Of a DNA stretch of 64,000 nucleotides, positions 25,489 to 27,033 are shown in pieces. Under the pieces are notes generated by a model. The model was not told the origin of the DNA. It saw nothing but the letters and a program-made list of their open reading frames with translations, and made no database searches. Position 1 is the first letter of the stretch. Every line of letters starts with the position of its first letter. The stretch is from contig DASVWD010000070.1 in NCBI GenBank assembly GCA_036389795.1, positions 1 to 64,000 on the forward strand, given 5' to 3'. A program made the translations under genes and the position numbers. Source of the DNA: Longimicrobium sp. (GTDB lineage Bacteria; Gemmatimonadota; Gemmatimonadetes; Longimicrobiales; Longimicrobiaceae).

Positions 25489-25771
25489 GACTCCCTCCCG
25501 CTGCACGAGTTCCCCGCCGCGAAACAGGTTTGTCGCGGGGTGCAGGAGCCGGGCCAGCGTGACGGCACCCCGCGCCCTCTCCACCGGAACCGAGCCCCGG
25601 CAGCAGGGAGCCACGCGGATTTTCGTTTCCCGAGCGGTGGCGGGTTACGTGTGGGCCGCCGCCCGTGTGAGCGGCTACATCCTTTTCCCGCCGGCCGGCC
25701 GCTCCCCCGTACCGGTGCGCGGGAGCGGTCCAGATCACCCGGCCCGGCATTCACCCAGGCGAGGAGGAACC

Positions 25772-26026
25772 ATGCGGAAGCTGAAGCTGGACGTCGAAGA
25801 GCTGAAGGTCGACAGCTTCGAGGTGGCCGAAGACGAGAAGGCGCCGCGCGGGACGGTGCGCGGGCACGCCCAGTACACGGACTACCGGGTGTGCGACACC
25901 GCCGTGGACTGCTCGTGGAACAGCTGCCCGTCCAACTGTGTGTCGGCGTGCGCGGTCACGTGCTACGACACGTGCGAGGCCACCTGCGAGATGTCGTGCC
26001 ACTACGGCAGCTCCTGCGGGCTGTGA
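25772..26026 (+). CDS. Cys-rich peptide with RiPP-like leader
   Basis: 84 residues on the plus strand, GGAGGAAC before the ATG. The N-terminus (MRKLKLDVEELKVDSFEV) has the alternating K-L-x-L-x-x-L-x-V-x-S-F pattern that I know from leader regions of pinensin-like lanthipeptide precursors in Bacteroidota and related groups. The C-terminal 45 residues contain ten Cys. Seven of them are exactly four residues apart (C-x3-C, from NSCPSNC to EMSC), mostly preceded by Ser or Thr. A hairpin terminator follows at 26035. No LanB, LanC, LanM, radical SAM or transporter gene is close, so it would be modified in trans or not at all. Alternative: a metal-binding Cys-repeat protein. Confidence 0.8.
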   Translation: MRKLKLDVEELKVDSFEVAEDEKAPRGTVRGHAQYTDYRVCDTAVDCSWNSCPSNCVSACAVTCYDTCEATCEMSCHYGSSCGL

Positions 26027-26034
26027 CGGCGGAG

Positions 26035-26060
26035 GTCCGGGCGCGAAGCCGCGCCCGGAC
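26035..26060 (+). terminator. Terminator of the Cys-rich peptide gene
   Basis: 11-bp perfect stem GTCCGGGCGCG / CGCGCCCGGAC with loop AAGC, 9 nt after the stop codon, followed by CCGCCTTCTCC. Confidence 0.65.
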
Positions 26061-26080
26061 CCGCCTTCTCCCGTCCCGCC

Positions 26081-26896
26081 TCAGCGCTTCACCCCGATCA
26101 CCTCCACCATCGGCGGCGTGGAGAAGAAGGCGCCCGGGTCGCGCTCGCGCTCGGCCCAGCGGGCGTCGAACTCGTCCGCGTCGGCCCGGGTGAGGAAGCC
26201 GTTGGAGACGAGCGTGGGGAGGAAGTTGGTGAAGAAGGTGCGCGGCCACTCCCACACTCCCGAGCCCGGCCGCCCGGTGCGCACCAGCGTCTCCACGTGC
26301 ACCACCCTGAGCCCGGCCTGCTCCATGAGCGCCGGAAGCCGCGCCCCCAGGTGCGGGTCGCCGCCGGAGGCGCGCCACGACGCCATCATGGCCGCGAACA
26401 CCCGGTCGAACGCGGGGTCCTCGGGCGCCACCAGCACGCCCCCGTACTTCATGTAGTCCTGCACCACGAAGGCGGCGCCGGGCCGGAGCGCGCGCGCCAC
26501 GCCCCGCACCGCCGCCCCGGGGTCGCGCAGGTAGCAGAGCACCCAGCGCGACCACGCGCCGTCGAAGGAGGCCTCGGGGAGGTCGAGCGCCGTCACGTCG
26601 CCCACCTCCGCGGTCACGCCCTGGAGCCCGCGCGCCGCGGCCTGGCGGCGCACGTGGGCCACGAAGCGCTCCGAGAGGTCCACCCCGTGCACCCGCCCCG
26701 CCGCGCCCACCAGCCGCGCCAGGTCGAGCGTCGCGTACCCGGGCCCGCACCCCACGTCCAGCAGCGCGTGCCCGGGCCCGAACCCCGCGCGCTCCCATGC
26801 CGACGCCGCCTGCGCGCTCCACACCTGGTGCTGGAACCCGAGCCGCTCCAGCTCCCCGTCGTTTACCCCCAGCAGGTACTCCCGCTCTTCGCTCAT
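26081..26896 (-). CDS. Class I SAM-dependent methyltransferase
   Basis: 271 residues. Motif I LLDVGCGPGYATLDLA near residues 50-65 binds S-adenosylmethionine; VHGVDLSERFVAHV and the acidic motif ALDLPEASFDGAWSRWVLC follow in normal order. It belongs to the Methyltransf_11/25 group; the substrate cannot be told. It is convergent with the Cys-rich peptide gene (54 nt between stops), so a direct role in that pathway is not supported by operon structure. The Met at 26896 was chosen because upstream sequence is repeat hairpin. Confidence 0.88.
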   Translation of the reverse strand: MSEEREYLLGVNDGELERLGFQHQVWSAQAASAWERAGFGPGHALLDVGCGPGYATLDLARLVGAAGRVHGVDLSERFVAHVRRQAAARGLQGVTAEVGDVTALDLPEASFDGAWSRWVLCYLRDPGAAVRGVARALRPGAAFVVQDYMKYGGVLVAPEDPAFDRVFAAMMASWRASGGDPHLGARLPALMEQAGLRVVHVETLVRTGRPGSGVWEWPRTFFTNFLPTLVSNGFLTRADADEFDARWAERERDPGAFFSTPPMVEVIGVKR

Positions 26897-26913
26897 ACGA
26901 ACACCTTGGGGAT

Positions 26914-26977
26914 CACGCAGAGCAGCAGAGTCAGCAGAAAACAGTGGGGTTCTCTGCTGACTCTGCTGCTCTGCGTG
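26914..26977. repeat. Hairpin repeat (family A, CACGCAGAG type)
   Basis: Two perfectly complementary 25-nt arms (26914-26938 and 26953-26977) made of CAGCAGAGT-like units, with outer ends CACGCAGAG / CTCTGCGTG and a 14-nt loop. Immediately upstream of the methyltransferase gene. Confidence 0.9.
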
Positions 26978-27033
26978 AGACATTTCTGGATTTCACCCCC
27001 GAACGGGCCTGGCCGAAGCGGAATGATACGAAA

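Follow-up and report, generated by a model that had tools for sequence, protein, structure and literature searches.

A cysteine-repeat peptide gene of Longimicrobium sp. is one of about 100 dispersed leader-sharing precursors and a probable class I lanthipeptide substrate

The 84-residue Cys-rich peptide encoded in the window (the whole stretch of 64 kb that was analyzed) is one of about 100 precursors that share a leader and are dispersed over the genome. We consider it probable (about 0.8) that it is a class I-type lanthipeptide precursor with a pinensin-like leader, on which a LanB/LanC set shared by about 100 substrates acts in trans. An earlier note on this DNA had described the gene as an orphan, which is wrong at the scale of the genome. 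Its further proposals, namely a leader of lanthipeptide type and membership in a group of peptides modified by an enzyme whose gene lies elsewhere, are supported, the substrates numbering in fact about 100. The following features of the locus were defined.

25489..26080, no strand: 592-bp gap containing the precursor gene (tblastn and leader HMM on loci L123-L126)
25762..25767, + strand: Shine-Dalgarno sequence AGGAGG, 4 nt 5' of the ATG (sequence)
25772..26026, + strand, stop included: precursor peptide gene, 84 aa (translation; phmmer paralogues; leader HMM, 53.7 bits)
25778..25819, + strand: leader motif K-L-x-L-D-x-[DE]-x-L-x-V-[DE]-[ST]-F, residues 3-16 (conserved columns, pattern matches)
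25850..25867, + strand: G-T-V-x-G-H, residues 27-32, at the leader/core boundary (conservation of G27 and T28)
25868..26023, + strand: core region with ten Cys (translation, residue statistics)
25925..25999, + strand: seven Cys at exact 4-residue spacing, C52 to C76 (translation, shuffle test)
26034..26061, + strand: 12-bp hairpin 3' of the stop, without a U-run (folding)
26081..26983, - strand: gene resembling SAM-dependent methyltransferases, a conserved flank (neighbour comparison; named by sequence look only)

Translation of the reading frame 25772-26026 (+) yielded the peptide MRKLKLDVEELKVDSFEVAEDEKAPRGTVRGHAQYTDYRVCDTAVDCSWNSCPSNCVSACAVTCYDTCEATCEMSCHYGSSCGL, which carries ten Cys at positions 41, 47, 52, 56, 60, 64, 68, 72, 76 and 82, as the earlier note had read it. 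A run of seven Cys at spacing 4, as found from C52 to C76, occurred in none of 20,000 shuffles of the core. The residues just before these seven Cys are S, N, A, T, T, T and S; the statement that each Cys is usually preceded by Ser or Thr holds for five of the seven. The gene has its own ribosome binding site, as had been proposed, and the proposed terminator was upheld in part: a strong hairpin follows the stop codon (-37.6 kcal/mol, z -3.6) but no U-run stands behind it. A Pfam search with the peptide gave no match, and Nif11 was matched neither in Pfam nor in NCBIfam. The NCBIfam model of pinensin leaders, NF038180, scored 12.4 bits, below its cut-off of 24, and TIGR04117, a model of Cxxx-repeat radical SAM targets, 13.9 bits against a cut-off of 50 (E 0.043). 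Two low-scoring PDB matches were rejected as spurious, one to a flagellin hook motif (E 0.00084), which straddles the leader/core border, and one to a chymotrypsin inhibitor (E 0.57), which covers the Cys-rich part only.

Among the immediate neighbours of the precursor gene no modification enzyme was seen, in line with the earlier reading, and the neighbouring methyltransferase-like gene is not thought to be part of the precursor system. A scan of the 64-kb window for a second Cys-repeat ORF gave none, and neither the genome-wide leader pattern nor phmmer listed a second leader site on its contig. The two flanking genes are also neighbours in four related genomes, where 61-64 bp without a precursor separate them, as determined by tblastn and the leader HMM; the gaps were taken by hand from tblastn coordinates, with the start of the 121-aa frame set at an internal ATG (25488). 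Since the site is empty in four relatives, the comparison points to a gain of the precursor at this locus or, less likely, to repeated loss.

A phmmer search over 99 related genomes detected many short leader-sharing ORFs in the genome of the window and in G002, G008, G009, G014 and G015 of the same family, a smaller number in G001 and G007, and nothing beyond weak matches in other families of the order. With a strict DNA pattern of the leader 59 sites were found in the genome of the window, and with a wider pattern 98, the reversed control being 0 for both. The wider pattern also detected 103 sites in G008, 86 in G002, 38 in G014, 21 in G015 and 18 in G009 (controls 0 or 1). Reading 35 stretches of the own genome with an HMM gave 105 different peptides that carry the leader, a number which is a lower bound and includes some low-scoring members; 91 of the 105 have a Shine-Dalgarno match of at least 5 nt, compared with 86 of 1000 random ATGs. 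The precursors occur both as single genes and in arrays (contigs C206, C259, C112, C75, C198 and others). In an alignment of 57 paralogues the leader columns K3, L6, L11, V13 and F16 are invariant or nearly so, and G27 and T28 are at least 90% conserved. Similarity at the DNA level is mostly limited to the Shine-Dalgarno sequence and the leader, with a few short matches in the core and none of the promoter; a search for a common upstream motif of the paralogues returned only GC-rich background words.

Since a paralogue from the own genome passes NF038180 (32.6 bits, cut-off 24), the leader family is one already modelled as the pinensin family, and the chemistry expected from sequence would be of a known kind. 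Matches above this cut-off were found in 5 of 298 Gemmatimonadota genomes. A scan of 85,000 genomes with the leader pattern returned 8 stretches, all from Gemmatimonadetes MAGs, a count which understates the spread, as GC-rich codons were used and the window's own record was left out. A precursor sub-family with a similar CTCxxxCxCPxAxYxC-type core (L055:7234-9519, L110:3743-5990) is common to the own genome and G008, so that a number of conserved cores stand beside a hypervariable majority. In another precursor (L082:2979-3263) the core unit VSGGGATQCGGVQTCGGGCQ is present three times in tandem, which suggests that the core was duplicated recently. Two LanB-adjacent precursors (L066:11003-11242, L060:10824-11093) have a different tandem core of CSxCSGCSxC type with a Cys at every third residue, and the leader of the latter is slightly diverged.

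One LanB (PF04738) was detected in the own genome. It lies on contig C225, where the genes of a separate Lant_dehydr_C protein and of a LanC come next in the same operon, with profile matches of E 4e-46 (LanB_N), 5.5e-41 (split Lant_dehydr_C) and 7e-49 (LanC). The LanC retains the WCHGAPG and SLCHG motifs of the zinc site. The best PDB match of the LanB_N is 6ec7, a lantibiotic dehydratase domain protein (E 5.5e-25), which we take to be TbtB. The contig contains no precursor and ends 335 bp past LanC, so that precursors belonging to this operon, if any, may sit on another contig. Homologous leaders and maturation enzymes, whose absence the earlier note had named as evidence against its reading, are both found in the genome, and that reading was not refuted by this check.

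In relatives, leader-bearing precursors adjoin LanB/LanC at six loci (L057, L058, L059 with ten precursors, L061, L063 with six, and L066). Several of these clusters include an ABC transporter, and L063 includes an HlyD-type protein; the ABC exporter adjoining the precursor array on C206 of the own genome is 83% identical to one in a relative's LanB/LanC cluster. Leaders were present in 9 of 10 LanB-positive genomes compared with 0 of 11 LanB-negative genomes, presence being defined as at least two sites and single stray matches in three LanB-negative genomes being counted as spurious (Fisher p about 3e-5, calculated by hand with the genomes treated as independent despite their kinship). LanM is absent from G008, which has 103 leaders, and present in G003, which has no real leaders. 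Neither the own genome nor G008 has a YcaO. SPASM radical SAM proteins number one in the own genome, none in G001, which has leaders, and five in G005, which has none. As these three families fail to track the leaders, LanB/LanC is the sole tested enzyme family common to all leader-rich genomes. No protease dedicated to the leader was found. Two class II lanthionine synthetases (DUF4135 plus LanC) are encoded about 2 kb apart on contig C28 of the own genome (L052:6450-15334), and a stand-alone LanC adjoins a HopA1-family protein on contig C285 (L053:9895-12214), a pair that resembles class V lanthipeptide genes.

The spacing of Ser/Thr and Cys was analyzed in 153 cores with less than 50% identity, each beginning behind the conserved GTV or behind residue 28. 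At position -5 of isolated Cys, defined as those whose five upstream residues include no further Cys, Ser/Thr was found in 41% of cases against a base rate of 22.6% (p 1e-19), and the mirrored downstream test on the same cores showed no Ser/Thr peak. Ser and Thr were both enriched at -5, no other residue was, and this was replicated separately in the cores of the own genome and of the relatives. At position -1, Ser/Thr occupied 86% of cases when the next Cys was at +4, dropped with the distance to the next Cys, and was about at background before the last Cys. Relatedness of the paralogues weakens these p-values but not the direction of the effects. A thioether from Ser/Thr at position i to Cys at i+5 would yield both the isolated-Cys and the last-Cys effect. 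The statistics therefore favour overlapping [ST]-x4-C rings, of which they are the trace expected, the pairing itself being predicted from residue positions. In the 84-residue peptide such pairs are T36-C41, S51-C56, T63-C68, T67-C72 and T71-C76, and only five of its ten Cys have Ser/Thr at exactly -5.

According to the mechanism we propose, the leader KLxLDxxxLxVxSF would be bound by the split LanB, presumably through its RRE. LanB would then glutamylate Ser/Thr of the core, the separate Lant_dehydr_C protein would eliminate glutamate, and LanC would join the thiols of Cys to the dehydrated residues, in most cases to a Ser/Thr located five positions towards the N-terminus. Where xx[ST]C recurs at a spacing of 4, each Cys-adjacent Thr would form a ring with the next Cys in line, so that a ladder of overlapping six-residue thioether rings would result (T63-C68, T67-C72, T71-C76). 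To our knowledge, a long ladder of this kind would be a new peptide architecture. The enzymes, encoded once on C225, would act in trans on about 100 scattered precursors, one set probably serving them all. GTVxGH may be the processing region at which the leader is removed, export would probably proceed via the ABC/HlyD-type exporter encoded next to precursor arrays, and the products may constitute a diversified repertoire of secreted peptides. The most specific form of this proposal, in which a single LanB/LanC set handles about 100 dispersed hypervariable substrates under a fixed [ST]-x4-C rule and turns the Cxxx-repeat members into long ladders of overlapping thioethers, is put forward tentatively, at a little short of an even chance.

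The earlier note had offered a ladder of small rings beside a Cys-striped helix and a metal-binding rod. Residue statistics, though not chemistry, favour the ladder. Ten Cys with a helical i,i+4 periodicity would suit an unmodified disulfide or metal-binding small protein, either a Cys-striped helix or a metallothionein-like rod, and a weak similarity to a Cys-rich inhibitor in the PDB (E 0.57, not significant) is of the same tendency. However, neither helix nor rod, nor duplication of an xxTC unit, would yield the enrichment of Ser/Thr alone at -5 of isolated Cys or the dependence of Ser/Thr at -1 on a downstream Cys with its drop at the last one. As the leader is moreover of a shared RiPP type and linked to LanB, an unmodified protein is improbable. 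The Cxxx periodicity is also that of radical-SAM targets of TIGR04114/TIGR04117 type, in which Cys would form sulfur-to-carbon thioethers, and apart from the weak TIGR04117 match one paralogue matches TIGR04114. Yet the TIGR04117 match spans only the Cys-repeat core and not the leader, a Ser/Thr-specific spacing is not expected from such chemistry, and the single SPASM protein of the own genome belongs to a family that does not correlate with leaders, which makes this reading very improbable. Heterocyclisation of Cys/Ser/Thr to azol(in)es is hardly to be credited: it would fit the SC/TC pairs and weak heterocycloanthracin-family matches in two paralogues, but it needs YcaO, whose absence excludes it here unless the gene is missing from the assembly.

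A lanthipeptide precursor could also be modified by other enzymes. The two LanM genes and the LanC/HopA1 pair of the own genome could take some substrates, but the distribution of LanM in G008 and G003, the adjacency of leaders to LanB/LanC in relatives and the resemblance of the leader to the class I pinensin model argue against a class II or class V-like route, and we regard it as improbable for this peptide. That the gene is a decaying or silent member of the family, never expressed or modified, is suggested by its solitary position at a site that is empty in relatives; an intact ORF, a strong Shine-Dalgarno sequence and a well-conserved leader with an HMM score of 53.7 bits make this unlikely. 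Modification in trans by the LanB/LanC set is the reading that we prefer.

The combination of a leader with a Ser/Thr/Cys-rich core, and of a LanB glutamylation domain, an elimination domain and LanC in the genome, is that of class I lanthipeptides. Pinensins are class I lanthipeptides of Chitinophaga (family I 17), for which a split-LanB layout was reported (Walker et al., 2020; PMC7268733). The system described here resembles them in that paralogues pass the pinensin leader model and in having a split LanB, a separate elimination protein and LanC. In contrast, the 84-residue peptide has an xx[ST]C repeat as core and, lying below the cut-off, is by that model a relative of the leader family rather than a member, and about 100 precursors are dispersed per genome instead of a few in one cluster. 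Even 10 distinct precursors were a notable exception in a class I cluster (Walker et al., PMC7268733). The prochlorosins of Prochlorococcus MIT9313 comprise 29 precursors for a class II enzyme (PMC12328550), and many of the precursor genes are distant from the LanM; such dispersed genes are undercounted by cluster-based mining (PMC7268733). Both systems have one enzyme set, many dispersed precursors, a conserved leader and a hypervariable core, but ProcM is a class II LanM acting on Nif11-type leaders whereas a split class I LanB/LanC is found here with roughly three times as many precursors, so that the likeness is in the way of working and not in family membership. Cxxx-repeat targets of TIGR04117/TIGR04114 share the Cys at every fourth residue, and differ in leader, score and uncorrelated radical SAM enzyme. 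Split LanB proteins of thiopeptide type (6ec7) share the separate elimination domain, whereas the own genome lacks YcaO and has LanC. A draft-genome paper on Longimicrobium terrae lists three lanthipeptide clusters without precursor counts (PMC7291104), and our literature search found no paper describing this repertoire of about 100 precursors. The system is of a known kind; what is unusual is the large dispersed substrate set together with a ring code that can be inferred.

Among lanthionine synthetases, the class II enzyme ProcM is the standard case of a single enzyme that acts on dozens of natural substrates, whereas LanB/LanC sets usually have one or a few. If a class I set does serve about 100 substrates with a common leader within a single genome, this would be a natural combinatorial library, and it raises the questions how LanB/LanC tolerates so many substrates and what use such a number of ringed peptides is to a soil bacterium. 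The rings predicted from the spacing statistics could be tested with one mass spectrum. Genome mining centred on enzymes is confined to their surroundings and would overlook dispersed genes like that of the 84-residue precursor.
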